Below are positions 38,857 through 52,255 of a DNA stretch of 54,998 nt, piece by piece. The notes below the pieces were generated by a model, which had not been told where the DNA came from, searched no databases, and saw only the letters and a program-made list of their open reading frames with translations. The stretch lies in NCBI GenBank assembly GCA_015231955.1, contig JADGAN010000020.1, forward strand, positions 36,603 to 91,600, in the 5' to 3' direction. How positions within the stretch are numbered: position 1 is the first letter of the stretch; each line of letters starts with the position of its first letter. Source of the DNA: Oligoflexia bacterium (lineage in GTDB: Bacteria > Bdellovibrionota > Bacteriovoracia > Bacteriovoracales > Bacteriovoracaceae). Made by a program: the position numbers and the translations under genes.

Positions 38857-38933
38857 GCACCGGTAGCTCAGTTGGATAGAGCAGCTGCCTTCTAAGCCGC
38901 AGGTCAGAGGTTCGAATCCTCTCCGGTGTACCA
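38857..38933 (+). tRNA. tRNA-Arg (UCU)
   Basis: Cloverleaf: acceptor GCACCGG paired with CCGGTGT (one G-U), D-arm TAGCTCAGTTGGATAGAGC, anticodon loop CTTCTAA (anticodon TCT), T-loop TTCGAAT, discriminator A and encoded CCA at 38931-38933. One T-C mismatch is visible in the anticodon stem. A recombinase remnant on the other strand ends inside the gene, so it has served as an integration target. Confidence 0.95.
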
Positions 38934-40529: not shown

Positions 40530-41105
40530 TTACATTCTAGTTCTTACTATCTTTCCAAACATCTTGGCTTCTTTACCTACTACCACCTCACAGTCGGAAC
40601 CCTCTATAACAATATCTCCTTTAACTTCAGACTTGCCGATAATCTCAAGTTTTTGCTTTCTGTTCTCATTATCTTTACGGAAGGTGATGGTGCTAAAAGT
40701 TGAGTCTTTTAAGGTTGCTTCTTTAGCGGTTATATCGAGATGACCGCTAAATTGACATTTTTTACATTCGGTTGGGCCTATGATTCTAACTTCTTTCTTC
40801 GCCGTGATGTTATCCGCCTTAACTGGCCCGATGAGATTCGCATTAGTGATAGAAGTATCACTTAGGTTGCTTGGCCCTATGATCTTTAGAGAACCTTCGA
40901 TACTTGTCCCATTTTCTAGGGTTGCCGGCCCTGTTATCTGCAGGTCTTGCTTCACGATGACTTTGCTTAATTTAGCAATGCCAGTTATTTTAAGTGAATC
41001 GTAATTTGCATCAGAGAGAGATACATTGCCTATCATTGATTGCATTGCCAAAGCTCCTTGTGAGTAGATCATAAGAGGTAAGACTATTGATAATATTTTT
41101 TTCAC
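40530..41105 (-). CDS. Exported beta-helix-like repeat protein
   Basis: A 191-residue protein; GTG 41105 follows CGAGGAGAAAAA. A signal peptide (ILSIVLPLMIYSQGALA) is followed by repeats of about 20 residues with the pattern L-x-I-x-GP (QDLQITGPATLENGTSIEG; SLKIIGPSNLSDTSITNANL), as in bactofilin-like or other beta-helix proteins. Two Cys (ECKKC) lie near the middle. It is the last gene of the maturase transcript, 48 bases after it, and may act on or bind the exported peptide. Confidence 0.78.
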   Translation of the reverse strand: MKKILSIVLPLMIYSQGALAMQSMIGNVSLSDANYDSLKITGIAKLSKVIVKQDLQITGPATLENGTSIEGSLKIIGPSNLSDTSITNANLIGPVKADNITAKKEVRIIGPTECKKCQFSGHLDITAKEATLKDSTFSTITFRKDNENRKQKLEIIGKSEVKGDIVIEGSDCEVVVGKEAKMFGKIVRTRM

Positions 41106-41153
41106 TTTTTCTCCTCGGTATAGAGTTAATAATATTGGGATGCGGTTGCTATG

Positions 41154-42527
41154 CTATCTTGAGGCAACCTCTGCTAGTATACTCTTCGTAACTTCATAGC
41201 AACGAGCAGTTTGACCTAAAACATCTTTGCTCATAAAGTACGCTTCTCCTCTACACCCACCAGCACACCGCTTGGAATAATCACAGTTACCACAACCCTT
41301 CAACTTGGTAACTGCTTTCTCGCATAGTGAACGTAACTCTTTTCTTGCTGTCGATGTGGCCCATAGCTCTGCTATGGAATGAGTGGTGACATCGCCCATC
41401 CAGAATGGTTCGTAAGCAAGCGAGGTACAAGGATAAAAATTTCCTGAGGAGTCAATGTAAGCGAATCGTGAACCGGCCTGGCACTCCATCACTTTATATT
41501 CCCTTTCTGGCCTGGTTTCAAAGCAGTAGGAGAATAACTCCCCATCGCTGAAATTAAGGTGAGGGTAGAGGGAGCGAAGTTTGGGTATTGTACGAAGATG
41601 AAACTCATTTTCTTCTTGGAGCGATGGTTTACTGTTCAAATAGATATCAGGATTACCGAATGGAACTAGCTCTTGGAAGGTTATCCCCGCGGTTCCCATG
41701 CTATCACTAAACTGCGCCAGCTCTTCGACATGATGAATGTTGTGTTTTGTGAGCACGGTTGTGAGATTAATCTTAACCCCAGCACAAACTAAATTACGAA
41801 TTCCCTCTGAGGTCCGGGCCAACACCCCTTTTCCTCTAGTAAGGGCGTTTATATCTTCGTTACAAGAGTCAACACTAACCCCCATGCGGATGTCTCTAGA
41901 TGCGATTTGCTTTGCGATTTGAGGGGTAATCAATGTACCGTTTGAGACCATCGTTACCTCGATGTTATTCGCGATGAAATAATCAATGATCTCGAAGAGG
42001 TTACGTCGAAGGAGTGCTTCCCCTCCAGAAATACGCACGAAGAGAACTTTGGCATCGACGATGTTCTTTGCGATCTTAAAGACCATGTCATCACTAACAG
42101 AAGAAACTTGACGATAATTTCCTGAACATTCTGGAAAGCAATAGAGACACTTAAGATTACATGCTCCCGTAATCGCCCAGATAACATTAATCGGAGCGGT
42201 GTTGCTTGTAAGAGATAGGCGTCCACTAGGATTAAAGATCAAGTTCTTGGTCACGTCAGAAATATTTATTTGCTCTATGGGTGGTAAAGAAAAATCGATA
42301 AAGCGAAACCTTTTCAGGATGCTCAGATGCCTTGCATGCTTGGTGAACATCGACTGGTCAATGACTCCGTTAGCACTTCTTGCCGCCTCTAAGAGTGCGA
42401 ACATGGGTTTAGATATTTTTAGAGTGGTAGTGTTTTGGCGATTGAATAATAGATAGTGCTCACTCTCTTCCTTCGCTAAGTAAGGGTTGAAGGTTAGTTG
42501 TACTCTCTGATTTTTTATATTGTTCAT
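41154..42527 (-). CDS. Radical SAM/SPASM peptide maturase
   Basis: A 457-residue protein. Residues 123-130 are CNLKCLYC, the CxxxCxxC cluster site that binds 4Fe-4S and SAM. The C-terminal region has the SPASM cysteine set (KGCGNCDYSKRCAGGCRGEA, then a final Cys) for auxiliary clusters. The first 80 residues may form a PqqD-like peptide-recognition domain. Such enzymes modify ribosomal peptides (PqqE, AlbA, MftC types). It is coupled to the MFS gene (68-bp overlap), and AAGGAAC precedes ATG 42527. Its likely substrate is the Gly-rich peptide encoded at 43923-44048. Confidence 0.9.
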   Translation of the reverse strand: MNNIKNQRVQLTFNPYLAKEESEHYLLFNRQNTTTLKISKPMFALLEAARSANGVIDQSMFTKHARHLSILKRFRFIDFSLPPIEQINISDVTKNLIFNPSGRLSLTSNTAPINVIWAITGACNLKCLYCFPECSGNYRQVSSVSDDMVFKIAKNIVDAKVLFVRISGGEALLRRNLFEIIDYFIANNIEVTMVSNGTLITPQIAKQIASRDIRMGVSVDSCNEDINALTRGKGVLARTSEGIRNLVCAGVKINLTTVLTKHNIHHVEELAQFSDSMGTAGITFQELVPFGNPDIYLNSKPSLQEENEFHLRTIPKLRSLYPHLNFSDGELFSYCFETRPEREYKVMECQAGSRFAYIDSSGNFYPCTSLAYEPFWMGDVTTHSIAELWATSTARKELRSLCEKAVTKLKGCGNCDYSKRCAGGCRGEAYFMSKDVLGQTARCYEVTKSILAEVASR

Positions 42528-43824
42528 TTGTCTGTTCCTTATCGAGTAATTCCAATTCTAGCTTCGTAATATTTATTAAATCATTCTCTGGTGTCTTGAA
42601 AAAAGTTCTGAGCACTGGGGAGATATAGAGCACGGGAGCAACGATCATTACCAATACTCCTGAAAACCACAAAAACACCTCTGGGGAAATTTTGTTTCCA
42701 ATTAATCCAACAATGAATAATCCTAGTGGGTGGGCCAGACCACAGAGTGAAACTGTGATGGTCATCACTCTGGTTCTAACATGATCGGGATACGCCAAAG
42801 GTAACCTAGCGTCGACAAGAATTCCCCCGATTGTACGACTGACACCGACGAGGAAGTAGGCCGCAAAGGGAAGATAGAATGCGGGTGCGGTTAAACCGAT
42901 AATCCCTAACCCCATTAAGGTCAGAGCTATAACGACCAGAAATTCTTGTTTGATTTTTTTTTGGATAAAGCCTAGTGATAATGAAGCAAGGATAACTCCT
43001 ATACTTAATATTGATTCGAGTGATCCCAGATACCACGCTGGTAGTTGACGAACTAACTTGATATAGGATGGTACCGCGACAACCAAAGGAGAAAATGCAA
43101 GTTGAACAAAAAACAAAGTTCCGATTAAGTATCGGAGCAGTTTTGATTTTAGCACCACCTGCATTCCATACTTTAAATCTTGAAGATGAGTTTTAAGTTT
43201 ACCGCCTCTTTTCATCACCTGTTCGATGGCCGGAGAAGTATTGGATGAAATGAGCGAAGTCATCGTAATCGCCCATACGAATGATAAGAAGTCAGCAAAG
43301 AATGCGGCCTTGTATCCACCAAAGGTGATTATAAGTCCCGCGAACGCTCCTCCTACCATAGTAGAAACGCCACTGGAGATCATTGAATAGCGGATGGCCT
43401 TATTGAAGTCATTCTTGGGGACAAGTTTAATGACAATAGAGGCGGCCCCGACGGAGAAGATCACCTTGGCCACTGCTTGACAGGCGAAAAGGAAAGTTAG
43501 AAGTGCGACGTTAAAGTGTTCATAATAGATTACTCCAAATAATATGAGTGATGCGAAGACAGAGATACTCTGGCCAACGAGGAGTAATTTTTTTCGAGAG
43601 TAACGATCTCCGAGCGGCCCTAAGAGTGGGGATAGTATCAGCCTTAATACGGTGTTGATGAAAACGATGTTTGCGACAAGAGAAATATCTTTGGTCTTAT
43701 CGAGTAGATACCAAGAGAGTGCCAGCATCGAAGCACTGTCTCCTAAGAGTGAAACAAATTGACCAAAATGGAAAAGCCAAAAATCTTTGGTCAGCAAATT
43801 ATGACGATTAAGAAATTGAACCAT
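42460..43824 (-). CDS. MFS transporter, likely peptide exporter
   Basis: About 454 residues with around 12 hydrophobic segments. LLGPLGDRYSRKKLLLVGQS near residue 65 is the major facilitator motif A between helices 2 and 3. It resembles drug/macrolide efflux members (QFVSLLGDSASMLALSWYLL at the start). ATG 43824 or GTG 43830 can be the start. Lying between the peptide gene and its maturase, it probably exports the modified product or gives immunity. Confidence 0.9.
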   Translation of the reverse strand: MVQFLNRHNLLTKDFWLFHFGQFVSLLGDSASMLALSWYLLDKTKDISLVANIVFINTVLRLILSPLLGPLGDRYSRKKLLLVGQSISVFASLILFGVIYYEHFNVALLTFLFACQAVAKVIFSVGAASIVIKLVPKNDFNKAIRYSMISSGVSTMVGGAFAGLIITFGGYKAAFFADFLSFVWAITMTSLISSNTSPAIEQVMKRGGKLKTHLQDLKYGMQVVLKSKLLRYLIGTLFFVQLAFSPLVVAVPSYIKLVRQLPAWYLGSLESILSIGVILASLSLGFIQKKIKQEFLVVIALTLMGLGIIGLTAPAFYLPFAAYFLVGVSRTIGGILVDARLPLAYPDHVRTRVMTITVSLCGLAHPLGLFIVGLIGNKISPEVFLWFSGVLVMIVAPVLYISPVLRTFFKTPENDLINITKLELELLDKEQTNEQYKKSESTTNLQPLLSEGRE

Positions 43825-43867
43825 AAGCACATAACTCTCTTTTGTGTAATCGTGGGGTAAAGAGGTA

Positions 43868-43893
43868 AAAAGGGACGAGTCCTTGTCCCTTTT
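43868..43893 (-). terminator. Attenuator-like terminator after the peptide gene
   Basis: AAAAGGGAC (43868-43876) and GTCCCTTTT (43885-43893) form a perfect 9-bp stem with an 8-base loop. On the minus strand it lies 30 bases after the peptide stop and is followed by a short T run. It would leave much peptide mRNA and allow less read-through into the transporter and maturase, a common design for precursor genes. Confidence 0.7.
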
Positions 43894-43922
43894 ATACCCT
43901 CAGGTTTTTTTGCTAGGGGATG

Positions 43923-44048
43923 TTAAGCATTAACTCCACCGCCGCCTACACCACTTGCATGCCCGCCAACTCCAGCGGCAGCATCATACATGGATTGAAA
44001 ACCATCTTCATGGGTTTCTACTACTTCAATGTCAACGAATGTAGACAT
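43923..44048 (-). CDS. RiPP precursor peptide, Gly-rich core
   Basis: A 41-residue peptide from ATG 44048; AAGGAG lies six bases upstream. The acidic leader includes FVDIEVVETHEDGFQS, and the C-terminal part is AAAGVGGHASGVGGGGVNA, with eight Gly, one Ser, one His and no Cys; a GVGG word is repeated. A sigma-54 promoter lies 36-60 bases upstream and a terminator follows. Its neighbours are a radical SAM/SPASM maturase, a YcaO-like enzyme and an MFS exporter, the usual partners of a ribosomally made, modified peptide. The core resembles no family I know. The true cleavage site is not visible; one Ser limits azoline chemistry. Confidence 0.85.
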   Translation of the reverse strand: MSTFVDIEVVETHEDGFQSMYDAAAGVGGHASGVGGGGVNA

Positions 44049-44094
44049 ACTCTACTCCTTGTTTTGTGAAAAGGTTTAACTCTGATTTTACTAA

Positions 44095-44110
44095 AGCAAG
44101 CTCGATGCCA
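44095..44110 (-). promoter_or_regulatory. Sigma-54 (-24/-12) promoter of the precursor gene
   Basis: On the minus strand TGGCAT (complement of 44105-44110), a 5-base spacer and TTGCT (complement of 44095-44099) match the consensus TGGCAC-N5-TTGCW, with the invariant GG and GC ten bases apart. The start would be near 44084, giving a leader of about 36 bases to ATG 44048. The sigma-54 activator encoded divergently at 44272 is the obvious regulator. Confidence 0.85.
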
Positions 44111-44132
44111 CTCTTTGATAGCGTTGGGCCAA

Positions 44133-44205
44133 TATTGAAAGGTATTGAAATCACATGGAGCATGAAAAATTTATAAAAATATAATTGACTTGAATTTTAT
44201 CAATT
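44133..44205. promoter_or_regulatory. Candidate activator-binding repeats upstream of the precursor promoter
   Basis: TATTGAAA is repeated 10 bp apart (44133-44140 and 44143-44150), and AATTGA (44183-44188) with TCAATT (44200-44205) forms an inverted repeat. They lie 25-100 bp upstream of the -24 box, where enhancer sites for NtrC-type proteins usually sit, and could also control the divergent regulator gene. Assignment is tentative. Confidence 0.45.
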
Positions 44206-44271
44206 AGTAGAAACCAATATATTTTTGTAGAAGACTCGTTTTCAGTAACGCAAAGAAAATAGGGATGAAGT

Positions 44272-45744
44272 TTGAACCTTACGCATAAAATTCTTATTAT
44301 TGAGGATGAAGAGTATTTCAGAGAAGCATTGGTTAAACAGCTATCTGTTCTCGCTAATGTGGTGGCGGTTGCGAATAAACAAGATGCTCTGAAAGAAATT
44401 CAAAGAAACCACTTCGATGCTGTGATTATAGATATCGACCTCTCCGGTGAGATCGCAGGCTTCGACATATTAGAGTCAGCAAAGAGCAAAGATTTCTTTA
44501 CTATCATGCTAACCGATAACAGTAGTGATGATTATATCAAGAAGGCCTACTCCATGGGATGCGATCACTACCTCACCAAAGAGCAATCTGAACAGGTCTT
44601 GGAATTTATCATAATGGAGCGCTTACGGGTGACGAGTGACTCCGTTAGTGCTGAGTTCTTTAAGAGAAAATATGTTACCGAAGATCATACGTTAGTTAGC
44701 GACATCATCTCACTTAAAAAGCGACTAAGAAACAATGAGCGGTCTCTGCTTCTACTAGGAGCAACTGGCGTTGGGAAAACATTGCTTGCGGAGTGTATCC
44801 ATTATCTCCTCGGCGGTACCGAGGAGAGTTTTGTTGCTCTTAATGTTGCTTCAATCCCAGAACACTTAATCGAGAGTGAACTCTTTGGTTATAAAAAAGG
44901 GGCCTTCACTGGTGCGATAAAAGATAAGAGAGGACTGCTTGAAGAAGCAAACAATGGAACCCTCTTTCTTGATGAGATAACCAGCATGCCAATTCAAGTT
45001 CAGAAAAAGCTGCTTAAATGCATTGAGGAGAAGATATTTTATCCACTCGGCGGTACGACTGCGGTAAAAGTGAAGTTCCGATTAATCACTTCTACCTGTG
45101 AAGATATTTACCAGAAGATACAAACAGGAGATTTTAGAACTGATTTTTACTATCGTATTTGCGGGGTTACACTCACCATTCCGTCCTTAAAAGAACGTCC
45201 CAAAGATATAAAACTACTGATTAAGCACTTCCTTACTCAAGGTTCCCGGCAAGTTTCTTTCAGCAAAGAGGCCTACCGCTTGATGAGTGAGTATTGTTGG
45301 CCGGGAAATATTAGAGAGCTAAAGAGCGTGGTCGAAGAGTTGTCGCAGATTGATAGCGGTGAGGTTACATCGGAGGATTTACCAGAGCATATTCGCCTCA
45401 ATAAACCGATGCAACTAACAGCGAACTCCGCAAAATTTATTAATACCGATCATATTAGCTTTATTCGACAATATGGAATAATCAAATTTCTTTTGAAGTT
45501 AGAGGCCGATGCGGCCTTTGAAATAGAGAAGATGTTCAAAAACGATGCGGAAGGTGGGACGGAGTTTATGAAGGTCTCAAAAGCGTATTATTATAGGATT
45601 CTTCAGAGGGCCCGAAACCTCGAAAAGAACTTAAATATTGATCTGAAAGAGATCAAAGCCGGAACATTAAAATCAACCCATCGGCATCGACCACCAGTAA
45701 AGCAATCTGATATGGATGACTTTTCCAGTGAACTCATGCAATAG
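44272..45744 (+). CDS. NtrC-family sigma-54-dependent response regulator
   Basis: A 490-residue protein; the start is TTG 44272, a few bases after AGGGATGAAG. The receiver domain (residues 1-125) has the acidic pair (EDEE), phospho-Asp in VIIDIDLSG near residue 57 and Lys in YLTKEQ. The AAA+ domain has LLGATGVGKTLLAE (Walker A), ELFGYKKGAFTGAIKDKRG with the GAFTGA sigma-54 contact, and LFLDEI (Walker B). The end has a FIS-like helix-turn-helix (SKAYYYRILQRARNL). It should activate the precursor promoter at 44095-44110 when phosphorylated. Confidence 0.94.
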   Translation: MNLTHKILIIEDEEYFREALVKQLSVLANVVAVANKQDALKEIQRNHFDAVIIDIDLSGEIAGFDILESAKSKDFFTIMLTDNSSDDYIKKAYSMGCDHYLTKEQSEQVLEFIIMERLRVTSDSVSAEFFKRKYVTEDHTLVSDIISLKKRLRNNERSLLLLGATGVGKTLLAECIHYLLGGTEESFVALNVASIPEHLIESELFGYKKGAFTGAIKDKRGLLEEANNGTLFLDEITSMPIQVQKKLLKCIEEKIFYPLGGTTAVKVKFRLITSTCEDIYQKIQTGDFRTDFYYRICGVTLTIPSLKERPKDIKLLIKHFLTQGSRQVSFSKEAYRLMSEYCWPGNIRELKSVVEELSQIDSGEVTSEDLPEHIRLNKPMQLTANSAKFINTDHISFIRQYGIIKFLLKLEADAAFEIEKMFKNDAEGGTEFMKVSKAYYYRILQRARNLEKNLNIDLKEIKAGTLKSTHRHRPPVKQSDMDDFSSELMQ

Positions 45745-45768
45745 GTTCGTTATAGGAGTGATCGCTGT

Positions 45769-45978
45769 ATGGAAAATACAAAAGATAAGGGCCAACTCAT
45801 TCATGATTTAAGAAAATCTCTTAGGCGAATGAAGTTAATCCTTGATGGGCTGGATAGCAGTAACAATGGCACAGCTCCTAAAGACCAATTTCAGTTAGAT
45901 AAAATGAAAAAAGATTTTAGTGATGAAATTCTTAATATCAAAAACATTTGGGATCTAGACCATGAAAATATTAGATAG
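45769..45978 (+). CDS. Small protein with H-box-like motif
   Basis: A 69-residue protein, 24 bases after the activator gene. QLIHDLRKSLRRMKLILDGL near its start resembles the phospho-accepting helix of histidine kinases (HDLR-x-xL), with His12 in the right place, but there is no ATPase domain. It may receive or relay phosphate between the kinase at 50219 and the activator, or act as a decoy. No family is recognised. Confidence 0.65.
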   Translation: MENTKDKGQLIHDLRKSLRRMKLILDGLDSSNNGTAPKDQFQLDKMKKDFSDEILNIKNIWDLDHENIR

Positions 45979-46025
45979 TTTGATAGTCAGAACAGGAACA
46001 ATAACAATAAACAAAGAGGTATCGT

Positions 46026-46352
46026 GTGAAAGGTAACAAAATTTTAAATCTTATTCTTAGTGCTTGTTTACCATTTTTATCTAAAAGTGTGATGGCCAAT
46101 ACTCCAGGTGATTTCTTTCTTAAGGACTCAGTGTTAACTAAAGCAAATTTTCATGATTTGAATTTAGATTTTGAAAAAGTTGCGGCCAAGTTCGATGCAG
46201 TTAATCCGGTAGACTATGAACGGCATGTGTTCTATTTAGACCCTCATGTTGAAGATAGCAAAATTACTATTAGCGATGTGGACGGGGTTATGCTTCGACT
46301 TCCAATAGACAGAGTCTCTTATGGTTCTCCTAGAAACGAAGGGCATAACTAA
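46026..46352 (+). CDS. Small secreted protein in the RiPP cluster
   Basis: A 108-residue protein; GTG 46026 follows AAAGAGG. A signal peptide (KILNLILSACLPFLSKSVMA) with likely cleavage after VMA is followed by about 80 acidic residues with no Cys. No family is recognised. It lies in the divergent operon directly before two solute-binding proteins, so a role in peptide or signal handling in the periplasm is possible. Confidence 0.65.
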   Translation: MKGNKILNLILSACLPFLSKSVMANTPGDFFLKDSVLTKANFHDLNLDFEKVAAKFDAVNPVDYERHVFYLDPHVEDSKITISDVDGVMLRLPIDRVSYGSPRNEGHN

Positions 46353-46397
46353 TTTTTTTTTGCTTTCCCTCATCCTGATAAGAGAGATGGTTTTACG

Positions 46398-47930
46398 ATG
46401 AAGTACACTTTTTATTTTTCTATAATCTGCTTGACCCTATTGATGCTACTCGGTTGTTCTAAACAACCAAATAGCAATGTATTGAACTATGTCATTACCG
46501 ATGAAACGAGTAGCATATCTTTTTCTCCTTACGACTCTGATCTTGATACTAATGCTACGGTGGTAGATCATCTTGTTGGCACTCTTGTAAAGTATGGGCC
46601 GGATGGCCGATATGCCCCCTTCCTTGCAGAGAAATGGTATTCCACTCAAGATAACAAATGGATATTTGAACTTAAAGAGAACTTATCGTCAGAGGATGGG
46701 CAAAAAATAACGGCGGAAAATTATGTTAAGTCGCTTAAGTTTATTTTCAAAAAGTTGGCCCATGACGGGACATTGCCCACCTTTGATGCTCTGATTGGGT
46801 GGAAGGAATTTATTCGTGGGGCCGGGGAATTAAAAGGACTTTACTATAAAGATGATAAGACTTTGGTCTTTGAGTTTGATCGGAAGATTGAAGGATTGAT
46901 AGATTATTTGGCCATGCCTTATTATGGATTTTATTCTTCTAGTGATTTTAATCCGGATGGTACCTGGAAAAACAATCAAAAAATCTCGTCTACTGGTGCT
47001 TATAAAGTCAAGAGATACACTGAAAATGAAATTCTCTTGGAAATGAGACAAGATATTTTCTCTTATGATAAGTTTGCCCCACAGTTGGTTTTAGTGAAGA
47101 AGCAAAAATCAGAGGATGCTTTAAAAGAAAACCGGAGTAGATCACTATTAACCATATCCTTAGAAGGTAAATCTATTTCACAATCAGATTTTACTCTCAT
47201 TAAAGGGCCGCCAATTGTTCTGACCACGATCATCCTGAGTCCCTATAAAGAAAATGTATTCCACGACCTTTCTATGAGAGAAGTGTTTGTTGAAGACGTC
47301 CTTGAATACCAAACATCAAACCGCTTTGAGAGCAGTGATAAAATTGTATCTACAGATTTTTTTGTTGATTATCCTGGGAAGCAAACATCTACTCTCAAAG
47401 GCAGCATCGCCCCTAAAGATACTTTGAAGATAGTAAAAGGAAAAGAAGTCCTAATCTATATCCCCTCACTCTTAGCAAAGGCCGAACGGGATTATTTAGA
47501 TACTCTTTTCACCTTTATCTTAACTAAAAAGCATGGGATTAAGTTCACTTATGCGAGTGATGATCCCAAAGACGAGCAGTTAATTCAAAAGAAGATCAAC
47601 AATAAATTTTTTGACATTAGGGTTTCAACAGTGTTTGCCGGTAGCACTATCGACTGGTTTATTGTGAAGATGATCTTCTGTACCAAACTAGGGGTCAGTT
47701 ACCCCGATCCATCAGGGCGGATGTGCTCACTCACCAAATCCTACGAGGAGGGCAAAGTTGCGCTGAAAGATTTTCAACAGCGATTTAATCAAATCTATAG
47801 AGAGGATAGCTCTGTGATCCCAATGTTCCATGGTGGAGCAACTTGGCTTGTCTCTAAAGATATTGATCTTAAAAATATTGCATCGACGATGAGCCATCCA
47901 CGTTTTGATCTTATAAGATTTGTGAAATAA
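46398..47930 (+). CDS. Family 5 solute-binding lipoprotein (peptide-binding type)
   Basis: A 510-residue protein. The N-terminus has a lipobox (LLMLLGC) and then a DppA/OppA-like fold: VVDHLVGTLVKYGPDGRYAP, FLAEKWYSTQDNKWIFELKE and GQKITAENYVKSLKFIFKKL. Such proteins bind peptides or other small molecules for ABC importers. No ABC permease or ATPase gene is nearby, so it may act as a sensor co-receptor or peptide chaperone. A paralogue without signal sequence follows after 12 bases. Confidence 0.88.
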   Translation: MKYTFYFSIICLTLLMLLGCSKQPNSNVLNYVITDETSSISFSPYDSDLDTNATVVDHLVGTLVKYGPDGRYAPFLAEKWYSTQDNKWIFELKENLSSEDGQKITAENYVKSLKFIFKKLAHDGTLPTFDALIGWKEFIRGAGELKGLYYKDDKTLVFEFDRKIEGLIDYLAMPYYGFYSSSDFNPDGTWKNNQKISSTGAYKVKRYTENEILLEMRQDIFSYDKFAPQLVLVKKQKSEDALKENRSRSLLTISLEGKSISQSDFTLIKGPPIVLTTIILSPYKENVFHDLSMREVFVEDVLEYQTSNRFESSDKIVSTDFFVDYPGKQTSTLKGSIAPKDTLKIVKGKEVLIYIPSLLAKAERDYLDTLFTFILTKKHGIKFTYASDDPKDEQLIQKKINNKFFDIRVSTVFAGSTIDWFIVKMIFCTKLGVSYPDPSGRMCSLTKSYEEGKVALKDFQQRFNQIYREDSSVIPMFHGGATWLVSKDIDLKNIASTMSHPRFDLIRFVK

Positions 47931-47942
47931 CAAAGGAATTGT

Positions 47943-49391
47943 ATGCGAGGAATATCTTACATAGTAACGGACACAACCAAAGATTTTTCTCTATCTATCC
48001 ATGACTCTGATTATAGTCAAAACACCATTGTTATGGAGCAAGTTGTAGGAACATTGCTTAAGTTTAATCACCAAGATCAAGCTATCCCTTTCTTGGCCGA
48101 GAGCTGGAAAGTTGTCGATGGCCTAAAATGGATATTTAAGTTAAGATCGAATTTAAAATGTGAAAACGGAGAAGAGATAACAGCAGAGTCGTATGTAAAT
48201 AACTTTAAAAATATATTTCGGATGCTGGCAAAGAGTAATGAACTTCCAACCTTTGATTGCCTGAGAGGGTGGGATGCTTTTATCACAGGAAAGAGTAGCG
48301 ACTTGGGCCTCTTTGTAGAAGACAAGGTTACAATCGTATTTTCATTTTCTAAAAAAGTCGAAGGCGTTGAAGAGTATTTAAGCATGCCATATTTTGGATA
48401 CTATGCTTCTGCAAATTTTAACATTGATGGAAATTGGGCCAATAAGGGGAATGTAATTGCTTCTGGCGCCTATAGGGTAGCTTCCTTTTCTCAAGATGAA
48501 ATTAAATTACTTGCGAGAGAAGATATGTTTCAGTTTAAAATAACCGCCCCCCTAAAAGTGTTAATTCAAAAGAAAGAATTGAATCAGGCCCTTAAAGATA
48601 ATAAAGACCACACCATTATTGCCAAAAGAGGTGAATGTGATTTGCGTTTACTTTCTAAAAGTAATTTTACTACTGCTAAAGGTAGGCCTGTGATAGCTTA
48701 CTCATTGATCCTTAACCCGAAGGGAAGTCGTTTCTTTTCTACAATAGAGAATAGGCAGATATTCATCAAGCATTTCCTGAACGAGAAGTCATTGCTTCCC
48801 TTGTTAAATAGTGATTCTGAACTATCAAATGATTTATTTCTTGATCATCCATCGGCCACCTCTTTTTTTGAAGGGGAATCAAATCAAGATCAATTCTCGA
48901 TATCAAACGAAGGACCATTAATAATTTACTCCCCTTATCCAACAGAAAACAAAGAGTGCTCTTATATAAAAGAACTTATCTGTAGAGTTTGCCATAAACT
49001 CAATATCCAGTATGAGTTTACCAATGCTCCTTCCGATAGTTCTAAAGATGTCATAAAGAAACTCACCAAGGAATGCGATCTAAGGATTTCTGGGGTTCAT
49101 GCAGGAACAAAAATTGATTACTTTATAGTTAAAATGATCTTTTGTAGTGATTTGGGCGTAAGTTACCCCGATCCCTATAACAAATTAGGTAGCTTAACTA
49201 AACTCTACGAAGAGGGCAAAATTGATCTCGCCGATTTTCAACAGCAATTTAATCGTATCTACAGAGAGGATAGTGCTGTGTTGCCAGTACTTCACTCAGG
49301 ACCAATTTGGTTTGTGAGCAAAGAGATTAATCTTAATAATGATAACGGTAGAATCTACACTCCTCGTTTTGACTTGATAGAGGTGAAGTAA
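47943..49391 (+). CDS. Solute-binding-protein paralogue without signal peptide
   Basis: A 482-residue paralogue of the preceding gene, aligned along its length: VVGTLLKFNHQDQAIPFLAE, the EEITAESYVNNFKNIFRMLA segment, and the shared ending with FNRIYREDSAVLPVLHSGPI. It starts directly in the mature domain at MRGISYIVTDTT; AAAGGA precedes ATG 47943. With no signal or lipobox it should stay in the cytoplasm, where it could bind the precursor or product and present it to the YcaO-like enzyme whose gene follows. Confidence 0.85.
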   Translation: MRGISYIVTDTTKDFSLSIHDSDYSQNTIVMEQVVGTLLKFNHQDQAIPFLAESWKVVDGLKWIFKLRSNLKCENGEEITAESYVNNFKNIFRMLAKSNELPTFDCLRGWDAFITGKSSDLGLFVEDKVTIVFSFSKKVEGVEEYLSMPYFGYYASANFNIDGNWANKGNVIASGAYRVASFSQDEIKLLAREDMFQFKITAPLKVLIQKKELNQALKDNKDHTIIAKRGECDLRLLSKSNFTTAKGRPVIAYSLILNPKGSRFFSTIENRQIFIKHFLNEKSLLPLLNSDSELSNDLFLDHPSATSFFEGESNQDQFSISNEGPLIIYSPYPTENKECSYIKELICRVCHKLNIQYEFTNAPSDSSKDVIKKLTKECDLRISGVHAGTKIDYFIVKMIFCSDLGVSYPDPYNKLGSLTKLYEEGKIDLADFQQQFNRIYREDSAVLPVLHSGPIWFVSKEINLNNDNGRIYTPRFDLIEVK

Positions 49392-49394
49392 GTT

Positions 49395-50255
49395 ATGATA
49401 GAGGAGCTAAGACTACTTGACCCTAAATTCCAGAAGATTATTGTCTCTCCGATAAAAGAGAAAGATCAGGATATCGGATATAGCAGTATTGTTATTTGCA
49501 ATGATAGTGCTATTGGCGGTGGTGTCTCTTCATCAGAAGATGAGAGTGTTAAAATCGCCATTGCCGAGTTTATTGAAAGATCGCTTTTTAAAATGATTTC
49601 AAATTCAGACCAGAGACAGGATTTTCTTCTTGATGAACACCCTACCACAAGCGGTTTTGCTGCTGGTTTTGATCATTCAAAAACATTTTTAAGGGCCTTA
49701 TGTGAGGCCACCGAGCGATGGTTATGGTCAAAATGGATAGATGAGGGGTTTTTTGTCCCAAGCATTTCCATTCCACTTCAAAATATGACTCCACTCGAAC
49801 GCTTCTTTTTATCCCATTTTGATTCAACCCAATTCAGAAAGATGAGCATTACTATTGACCATCCAATTACGGGGAAGGCCACTGCATATTTTGCGGTCTG
49901 CTTAGGAATAAAAGGCAATGGTATCTTTCCTGGGTCTAGAGTAAGTTTTGTTGAAGATAATCTGTGGGTGCATCCTCTCGTCGAGGCGTATAGGCATTTG
50001 GATATTTTCAACAAGAGGGATAAAGACCGTGCTCTTGCTGATTTTGATTTCATAGATCAAAGAATAATCTATTTTGGAGAAAATAAAGAGCATGCTCTAA
50101 ATACGATCAGCACTTGCAAACGAACCGATTGGCCCAAAATCACCTATAAACTAACCAAAGAGTATCCAACTAACAAACAGTACTACTTATGGAGAGTGCT
50201 GGCCGATAACTACAAAGGATGGCATCAAGGATGTTACGACCGCTTCGTTTACTAA
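49395..50255 (+). CDS. YcaO-like peptide-modifying enzyme (short)
   Basis: A 286-residue protein with the two YcaO signature helices: GGGVSSSEDESVKIAIAEFI followed by ER at about residues 41-62, and TSGFAAGFDHSKTFLRALCE followed by ATER at about residues 85-108. These Glu/Arg-rich motifs bind ATP and Mg in YcaO enzymes, which activate peptide backbone amides to form azolines, thioamides or amidines. It is shorter than typical YcaO proteins and lacks the usual C-terminal part. No TfuA or E1-like partner gene is seen. It overlaps the kinase gene by 37 bases. Confidence 0.82.
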   Translation: MIEELRLLDPKFQKIIVSPIKEKDQDIGYSSIVICNDSAIGGGVSSSEDESVKIAIAEFIERSLFKMISNSDQRQDFLLDEHPTTSGFAAGFDHSKTFLRALCEATERWLWSKWIDEGFFVPSISIPLQNMTPLERFFLSHFDSTQFRKMSITIDHPITGKATAYFAVCLGIKGNGIFPGSRVSFVEDNLWVHPLVEAYRHLDIFNKRDKDRALADFDFIDQRIIYFGENKEHALNTISTCKRTDWPKITYKLTKEYPTNKQYYLWRVLADNYKGWHQGCYDRFVY

Positions 50256-52255
50256 AAGAAAATATATTGCTTGAAATAGGGCCAACTAAAGTAGCACTTA
50301 TTCTTTTGCTAACCACACTACTTCACCATGTTTGCTTCTACTTTATTTCATCTCATGCCTCTAACAAAACGGTTTTGGGAGTAACGGGACTTCTACGCCA
50401 GCAATTCGTTGACTACGATCCATATAAAATTTCAGAGACACTACATGACTTAGAATCGCTTAACTTGATTAAGTGTTCTCAGTTTACCAATCTCGAAAAT
50501 AATTTAGCGTATTTGGATATGAGATATAAGAGTGGTGCCTCTGGAGGTTGTGAAGAGAGTTTTTTTCTTCTGAATGGAATCAAAAAAGATGTAACCATTA
50601 TTGGTGCGAATAATATTCGATGGGATGTTCAGTTTTTATCTATAAACGATGGTAGCTTCCTCTTGGCCCGTTTGTTTACGCTTATCCTCCTTCTTGTTTT
50701 CATCTTATCCTACCTATTCTCACGGGGACTTAAATTAAAAAATGAAAAGCAGGTCAGTGCTCTTAAAGACCAAAGTGCTGAACAGATCATGACCCTTGCA
50801 TCTCAAGTATCCCATGATATTCGCTCTCCACTAACAGCACTTGCTTCATCGGCAAGATCGTGGATACATTTACTGCCGGAGGATGACAGGGTAATTGTGC
50901 GATCTCAAATTCAACGCATTCAAGATATCGCAAACGATCTCCTCCGTAAGCGTAAAGAAATTAAGAGTGGTAAAAGTGGCGTAGAAAGTACCAGTAAGTT
51001 AGAACCACAGCTCCTTTCAAGTTGCATTGAAGAAATAGTAACTGAAAAGCGAATGACATTTCGCCAACACATTGGTCTTCATATAGAGGCCAATGTTGAG
51101 CAGACCTATGGTGTCTTCGCTATCATCAATCTCGTTGAGTTTAAACGCCTCATATCCAATCTTATCAATAATGCTACTGAGGCCTATGATGATAAGAAAG
51201 GTGAGATCAAGGTTCAATTAGTAGAAGACGAATTAAATGCAATTCTGAGTGTAGAGGATAATGGCAAGGGCATTCCCCCTGAAGTCTTAGCGAAACTTGG
51301 ATCAGTAGGTGTTACTTACGGTAAGGGAGATAACTCAGCTTCTGGCAATGGCCTTGGTGTGGCCCATGCTAAAAAGAGTATCGAAGATTGGGGCGGTCGA
51401 TTTAAGATAGAGTCCGAAGTAGGAAAAGGAACCAAAATCATTCTCGCTATTCCCAAAACTACCGCCCCTCATTGGTTTGTTTCCAAGATATCTTTAGAAA
51501 GCAATATGGCGATAGTGATCCTTGATGATGATGCTGGCATCCACCAAACTTGGGATAAGCGACTAGAGGGTGTGCTTGCATGTAGTGATTCCCAAGTAGA
51601 AGTTGTTCACCTCTCTACTCCAGATGATTTTAGTTCCTGGGTACAGAATCACTCTGCTCACTACAATAAAGTTTTATACCTCTGTGATTACGAATTACTT
51701 GGCCATAAAGTTAGTGGCCTTGACCTGATTGAAAAACATTCTTTGAATGGCCTGACCTACTTAGTGACCAGTCATTATGAGGAAGAGAAGATACGGACAC
51801 GCTGTAAAGAATTAGGAGTGAAACTGATTCCTAAGATGCTAGCAGGCTTAGTCCCCATTGAGGTTAAGAAAGATAAGCCCGCTCAGAGCGAAGCTACTTT
51901 GACGACTGATCTCCAAGACGTCCAAGCTGTCTTAGTGGATGATGATGAATATATCCGAATTGATTGGAGTAAATACGCTAAGAAGGCCGGTATTAAGTTT
52001 CTGGCCGTTGAGTCTTCAGCACAACTGATGAACATGACCCCAAAGCTCTCTAAGGAGCTTTGTGAAGTGTTTATCGATAGAGAGTTAGGTGAAGGGCTTC
52101 CCAAAGGTGAGGATGTGGCCATTACACTCTACGAGCAAGGCTTTAAGAAGCTTTCCTTGGCGACTGGTCACCCTGCTGACATGTTTGCACATCTGCCTTG
52201 GCTTAAATGCCAAGGGAAGGTGTGTCCGTGGTCGGATGAAGATGATGACTGGTAA
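50219..52255 (+). CDS. Membrane hybrid histidine kinase with two receiver-like domains
   Basis: A 678-residue protein. Two transmembrane segments (about residues 24-44 and 145-166) flank a periplasmic sensor domain of about 100 residues. SQVSHDIRSPLTALASSARS holds the phospho-accepting His near residue 200; NLINNATEAYDD, VEDNGKGIPPEVLAKLG and GNGLGVAHAKKS form the ATPase. Two receiver-like domains follow: one keeps acidic residues and LCDYELLG; the other has VLVDDDEY and VFIDRELGEG. Probably senses an outside signal, perhaps the peptide, and signals to the activator at 44272. Confidence 0.9.
   Translation: MASRMLRPLRLLKENILLEIGPTKVALILLLTTLLHHVCFYFISSHASNKTVLGVTGLLRQQFVDYDPYKISETLHDLESLNLIKCSQFTNLENNLAYLDMRYKSGASGGCEESFFLLNGIKKDVTIIGANNIRWDVQFLSINDGSFLLARLFTLILLLVFILSYLFSRGLKLKNEKQVSALKDQSAEQIMTLASQVSHDIRSPLTALASSARSWIHLLPEDDRVIVRSQIQRIQDIANDLLRKRKEIKSGKSGVESTSKLEPQLLSSCIEEIVTEKRMTFRQHIGLHIEANVEQTYGVFAIINLVEFKRLISNLINNATEAYDDKKGEIKVQLVEDELNAILSVEDNGKGIPPEVLAKLGSVGVTYGKGDNSASGNGLGVAHAKKSIEDWGGRFKIESEVGKGTKIILAIPKTTAPHWFVSKISLESNMAIVILDDDAGIHQTWDKRLEGVLACSDSQVEVVHLSTPDDFSSWVQNHSAHYNKVLYLCDYELLGHKVSGLDLIEKHSLNGLTYLVTSHYEEEKIRTRCKELGVKLIPKMLAGLVPIEVKKDKPAQSEATLTTDLQDVQAVLVDDDEYIRIDWSKYAKKAGIKFLAVESSAQLMNMTPKLSKELCEVFIDRELGEGLPKGEDVAITLYEQGFKKLSLATGHPADMFAHLPWLKCQGKVCPWSDEDDDW

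Follow-up and report, generated by a model that had tools for sequence, protein, structure and literature searches.

The known roles of YcaO enzymes are the making of peptide natural products and the modification of a few cell proteins, and the YcaO proteins of Escherichia coli and of methanogens act on proteins, not on ribosomally synthesized and post-translationally modified peptides (RiPPs). Gram-positive pheromone systems such as Phr and PrgZ combine a small Sec-exported protein, an active part at its C-terminus and a binder of the OppA type. RiPP cassettes such as that of mycofactocin hold a radical S-adenosylmethionine (rSAM) enzyme with a SPASM domain beside a short peptide and an exporter, and clusters with both an rSAM and a YcaO enzyme are known in Bacteroidales, where the YcaO enzyme ItfB acts at the C-terminus of the precursor (PMC10352776). 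In the LuxP-LuxQ-LuxU-LuxO quorum-sensing relay of Vibrio, a periplasmic binding protein is joined to a membrane hybrid histidine kinase and an NtrC-type regulator (PMC5394107). Parts of these kinds lie together in a stretch of 54,998 nucleotides (the window, that is, the whole 55 kb of DNA analysed) from the 5.6-Mb genome of a predatory-type bacterium of the Bdellovibrionota, which holds a tRNA-Arg gene, a recombinase, a peptide cassette and a sensor module.

Leftward from about 44.05 kb run the genes of a 41-amino-acid (aa) peptide, a major facilitator superfamily (MFS) transporter, an rSAM/SPASM enzyme and a 191-aa protein; rightward from 44.27 kb run those of an NtrC-type activator, a 69-aa open reading frame (ORF), a 108-aa signal-peptide protein, two OppA-like solute-binding proteins (SBPs), a YcaO enzyme and a hybrid histidine kinase. 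The original prediction, made from the DNA letters, had read these genes as one RiPP system in which both enzymes modify the 41-aa peptide. Every gene that it listed is present where it was placed; comparative genomics divides the locus into two units, an SBP-YcaO-kinase triad (unit A) and a rare, local peptide-MFS-rSAM cassette (unit B). Unit A is a separate, conserved and apparently undescribed sensor module that here adjoins a peptide-making cassette.

The best explanation of the whole, to which we give a probability of roughly 0.45, is that unit A is a Lux-like peptide-sensing unit with a YcaO-modified ligand that controls the divergent sigma-54 RiPP operon of unit B, the two sharing a divergent control region. 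The ATP-dependent YcaO enzyme would act on a small Sec-exported protein, the product of the gene just upstream, and modify the tail at its C-terminus; the processed, modified peptide would become the SBP ligand. A membrane-anchored OppA-like binder would present it to the hybrid kinase, which would signal to the NtrC-type activator in LuxP-LuxQ-LuxO fashion, with a presumed order of phosphorylation. The sigma-54 promoter of unit B would be the probable output, after which the rSAM/SPASM enzyme would mature the 41-aa peptide and the MFS protein export it.

The SBP-YcaO-kinase module

The rightward genes, all on the forward strand, are as follows.
44272..45744, forward: NtrC-type sigma-54 activator with a receiver domain and a GAFTGA motif (REC and Sigma54_activat in Pfam; equivalent position in 8 related loci)
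45769..45978, forward: 69-aa ORF with a HDLRKSLRRMKLIL segment resembling a kinase H-box (no Pfam match; codon score 0.226, gene-like)
46026..46352, forward: 108-aa signal-peptide protein directly 5' of SBP1, the equivalent by synteny of the module's small secreted protein (by position and signal-like N-terminus)
46398..47930, forward: SBP1, OppA-like lipoprotein with an LLGC lipobox (SBP_bac_5, 1.4e-15)
47943..49391, forward: SBP2, OppA-like paralog of SBP1 without a signal peptide (SBP_bac_5, 5.4e-20; OppA chains by sequence)
49395..50255, forward: compact YcaO enzyme of 286 aa (profile, fold, invariant ATP/Mg residues)
50219..52255, forward: membrane-bound hybrid histidine kinase whose C-terminus holds receiver domains; its gene overlaps that of YcaO (HisKA/HATPase; adjacent in 40 of 48 loci)

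On its own the YcaO protein scored under the Pfam cut-off (20.3 against 25.7 bits) and matched nothing in NCBIfam at 1e-3. A profile of 44 aligned sequences, down to 16% identity with the window protein, recovered both MJ1094 and McbD. The AlphaFold2 model (predicted local distance difference test score, pLDDT, 96.4; predicted template modelling score 0.92) retrieved YcaO enzymes in all of the top 14 rows of a structure comparison, McbD first with Z 19.0 over 262 aligned residues. Ten columns were invariant over the 44 sequences (G43, E58, E61, G87, A89, E104, E107, R108, E197 and R200) and R62 was nearly so; the E/ER residues aligned with the ExxER helices of McbD and MJ1094 in the profile alignment. 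As judged from this model and these residues, the protein is a genuine compact YcaO with an active-looking site, as had been proposed from its signature helices; a degenerate enzyme was rejected, all ATP/Mg residues being invariant. It resembles McbD of microcin B17 and other YcaO cyclodehydratases in fold and ATP/Mg residues. It differs in length (about 286 against 396 aa), in the lack of an McbB/McbC-like partner or dehydrogenase, in its conserved RF[VIL]Y or ERLCL C-terminus and in its place within a signalling operon. Thiazole/oxazole-modified microcin clusters are marked by an E1-like or RiPP recognition element (RRE) partner together with a cognate precursor, a combination absent around this enzyme: no such partner was present among the Pfam matches of the window, and the related loci hold SBP, kinase and NtrC genes.

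A single-sequence YcaO scan of the genome contigs gave no confirmed match. Within the family, three close homologs were found, all in SBP-YcaO-kinase loci, one of which has an altered order and a contig end. A nine-sequence profile gave matches in 65 of 369 genomes of the phylum, 50 of them at E<=1e-20, and one further search returned 10 loci, all from Bdellovibrionota-type metagenome-assembled genomes (MAGs); the labels of related contigs include Bacteriovorax stolpii and Bacteriovoracaceae and Pseudobdellovibrionaceae MAGs. With the window included, an SBP adjoins the YcaO gene in 40 of 48 loci and a kinase likewise in 40 of 48, several of the loci without one lying at contig ends. The genes overlap in 31 of 39 SBP-YcaO cases and in 25 of 31 YcaO-kinase cases, figures computed with the longest starts that may be slightly overstated. 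Around the 48 related loci there was no rSAM or MFS match. Because the triad recurs without the peptide, the rSAM enzyme and the MFS protein, the YcaO enzyme probably serves signalling and not the 41-aa peptide.

The SBPs match peptide binders, suggesting peptide ligands, and in at least 34 of 39 the N-terminus holds a membrane segment or signal. In the window, SBP2 starts 12 nt past the stop of SBP1, and its mature N-terminus aligns directly with SBP1; SBP2 may act in the cytoplasm. At one related locus (L014:7858-9857), two phage-type integrases lie directly upstream of the module, hinting that it can be mobile.

The small secreted protein and a probable relay

Two ORFs between the NtrC gene and SBP1 had been overlooked, the 69-aa ORF (45769-45978) and the signal-peptide ORF (46026-46352). 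The latter type recurs: an ORF of 40-140 aa with a ribosome-binding site (RBS) and a signal-like N-terminus stands 5' of the SBP in at least 24 of 37 testable loci, as against 5 of 180 control genes, and further small secreted ORFs beyond those 24 were spotted by eye. A Pfam search of the small proteins gave nothing significant. In 14 loci of one clade the small protein ends in [GAST][ST]Q[DE] and a short tail, the [ST]Q[DE] stretch being the only conserved part outside the signal peptide. The tails of the remaining loci are SGNW-like, Gly-rich or of the YNK type. Mapped on the YcaO tree, three tail classes needed 4 changes, compared with 15.4 in shuffles, none of 200 shuffles being as low. 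This is consistent with a pairing of enzyme and substrate, and is not proof of it because the neighbours within one operon have a common history.

The set of SBP, hybrid kinase and NtrC-type regulator that makes up the LuxPQ-LuxO relay was found in the window and 8 other loci, that is, NtrC is adjacent in 9 loci in all. From what is established of such parts, these three probably form a LuxP-LuxQ-LuxO-like relay. The proposed kinase/NtrC sensory circuit gained support, and the sigma-54 promoter ties it to the peptide operon. The triad differs from the Vibrio relay in its OppA-type (peptide) SBP, in its built-in YcaO enzyme and small secreted protein, in the absence of NtrC from most loci and in having no link to autoinducer 2. 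Compared with the Phr and PrgZ systems, it couples a kinase and a YcaO enzyme to the binder, occurs in Gram-negatives and holds no uptake permease genes. A LIHDLRKSLRRMKLIL stretch of the 69-aa ORF is likewise like a kinase H-box, and a phosphotransfer protein is possible. Near the module, sigma-54 sites were also seen at two other loci: in L095 one precedes the small protein, and in L104 a perfect one precedes a 71-aa ORF ending in GSKTPKLAGGNGTATGRPN (L104:5770-6072). The latter ORF has an internal hydrophobic segment and a Gly-rich tail and lies 1.5 kb from the SBP-YcaO-kinase module.

Several observations weigh against a Lux-like unit with a YcaO-modified ligand. Most loci lack an NtrC gene, which means that the kinase often has to act through a different regulator, and a signal peptide is missing from SBP2. 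The triad is not accompanied by a conserved peptide exporter or protease, and a leader-binding partner of the YcaO enzyme (RRE, TfuA or ThiF-like) was not seen. The small secreted proteins fall into several unrelated sequence families. The 108-aa protein of the window has no significant match to the small proteins of other loci and was not recovered by the group-B small-protein profile (E about 7), for which reason its placement rests on synteny and the signal peptide.

Alternatively, unit A may sense foreign or prey-derived oligopeptides, with the small secreted protein as a periplasmic helper and the YcaO enzyme acting on the kinase, the SBP or some other protein of the cell. Many peptides are bound by SBP_bac_5 proteins, predators encounter many, and the diversity of the small proteins also speaks for this reading; stand-alone YcaO enzymes with protein substrates exist (PMC13063428). 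What is conserved in the small protein is, however, a short C-terminal motif typical of a processed core, and its class tracks the YcaO clade, which leaves prey sensing a rather unlikely account, if one to be taken seriously.

The divergent peptide cassette

The features of unit B, all on the reverse strand, are as follows.
44095..44110, reverse: sigma-54 -24/-12 element TGGCATCGAGCTTGCT, promoter of the peptide operon (sole zero-mismatch match in the window)
43923..44048, reverse: gene of the 41-aa Gly-rich peptide, a candidate precursor of a RiPP (RBS, codon usage, promoter)
43862..43912, reverse: GC hairpin and U-run directly 3' of the peptide gene, terminator or attenuator before the MFS gene (dG -18.2 kcal/mol, z -2.81)
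42460..43830, reverse: MFS exporter overlapping the rSAM start, candidate peptide exporter (Pfam MFS_1, 1.5e-29)
41154..42527, reverse: rSAM/SPASM enzyme, probable maturase of the 41-aa peptide (Pfam Radical_SAM 5.6e-24, SPASM 7.3e-9)
40530..41105, reverse: protein of 191 aa whose N-terminus is signal-like; by position it closes the peptide operon (without Pfam family)

The 41-aa ORF (MSTFVDIEVVETHEDGFQSMYDAAAGVGGHASGVGGGGVNA) is probably a gene because it combines a strong RBS (AAGGAG before the ATG), gene-like codon usage, a sigma-54 site and a downstream hairpin. Its codon score of 0.203 per codon lies within the range of real-gene chunks (0.167 +/- 0.083; spurious ORFs 0.001 +/- 0.083) and was attained by 0.6% of 162 spurious ORFs; a spurious ORF was rejected on codon usage, promoter and hairpin. 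The pattern TGGCAY-N5-TTGCW occurs without mismatch once in the window, against 0.17 expected, and this site ends 46 nt upstream of the ORF in the correct orientation; rpoN was found in the source genome. Since a sigma-54 site stands on the divergent peptide operon, unit B is likely the output of unit A. The peptide had no match in Pfam, NCBIfam or PHROGs, and a search of 129 genomes of the family found no homolog of it.

The rSAM enzyme carries its CxxxCxxC motif as CNLKCLYC and falls in no curated NCBIfam family; the mycofactocin maturase MftC, its best match, was rejected as its identity at 138.9 bits, below the 265-bit cut-off. Close relatives occur in one of the 369 phylum genomes (G060), in two copies that keep both CxxxCxxC and SPASM. 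Each has a short peptide upstream (72 and 81 aa, strong RBS) with a leader of the double-glycine (GG) type, LEKVSGG or LLAVSGG; the two are related peptides (E 8e-6), a third copy lies elsewhere in that genome, and no YcaO gene stands beside any of them or the rSAM homologs. Because each of these relatives adjoins a GG-leader peptide, the window enzyme reads as a peptide maturase and probably modifies the 41-aa peptide, as far as sequence can tell. The RiPP-like reading of short peptide, rSAM/SPASM enzyme and exporter gained support. The cassette departs from known rSAM/SPASM cassettes in having an MFS protein in place of a peptidase ABC exporter, and in its unmatched peptide. A check for an N-terminal RRE on the rSAM enzyme gave a poor structure model (pLDDT 48) from three sequences only.

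The three related G060 peptides (L055:8152-8370, L056:8382-8627, L151:1483-1719), two of which adjoin rSAM enzymes, bear Pro/Arg-rich repeats KPxRPxxG and with those enzymes apparently form an undescribed rSAM-RiPP family. The window genome itself holds, on contig C114, a degraded second copy of the cassette rSAM gene (L057:9606-9854; SPASM end only, 51% identity over 83 aa), which ends an operon of the sugar/ATP-grasp/rSAM type. For the 191-aa protein, a weak PHROG tail-fibre match (0.0011) suggests a repetitive beta fold.

To the left of the cassette, the tRNA-Arg gene (38857-38933) runs into the 3' end of an ORF resembling serine recombinases (PF07508, 38904-39896), so that the tRNA sequence encodes the final residues of that ORF; this overlap suggests the edge of a mobile island immediately left of the peptide cassette. 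No tRNA-Arg attachment repeat of >=14 nt was found within the window. The recombinase beside the tRNA at 38.9 kb and the rarity of the rSAM cassette would both fit two unrelated neighbours in an accumulation region, with the sigma-54 site serving another activator. This is improbable, the sole perfect sigma-54 site being placed between the NtrC gene and the divergent peptide operon.

That the rSAM and YcaO enzymes both modify the 41-aa peptide, itself the signal of the circuit, as first proposed, draws on the co-location of the three genes, on a peptide gene divergent from NtrC with a sigma-54 promoter and on the existence of rSAM-YcaO RiPP clusters (PMC10352776), but is improbable, since 48 loci have the YcaO triad but no rSAM, MFS or peptide, the rSAM relatives occur without YcaO, and the peptide core has Ser and no Cys. 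The rSAM half of that proposal agrees with a peptide maturase; the YcaO half is not supported and fails the refutation test put forward with the original prediction, as its loci keep the enzyme without the short ORF and have a small secreted protein of their own upstream.

Novelty and meaning of the module

The set of genes had also been called undescribed. The pairing of rSAM and YcaO enzymes is not itself new, because Bacteroidales clusters have been reported (PMC10352776), and what stands is the SBP-YcaO-kinase module, for which no description was found in the literature searched. Its parts are of known kinds and their combination is new; only a proven mechanism would make it a new class. 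Tentatively, Gram-negative and largely predatory bacteria may have here a new class of peptide signalling, in which a compact YcaO enzyme modifies the backbone of a Sec-exported C-terminal tail, an OppA-like protein anchored in the membrane and a hybrid kinase read the product after processing, and a sigma-54 output drives, in this locus, an antibacterial-type RiPP cassette.

If the proposed mechanism is true, a phylum-wide operon of YcaO enzyme, peptide binder and kinase ties peptide backbone chemistry to signal transduction, and predatory bacteria gain a candidate channel for cell-cell communication or prey sensing. Two questions thereby become directly testable, namely the substrate of the YcaO enzyme and the input of the kinase.

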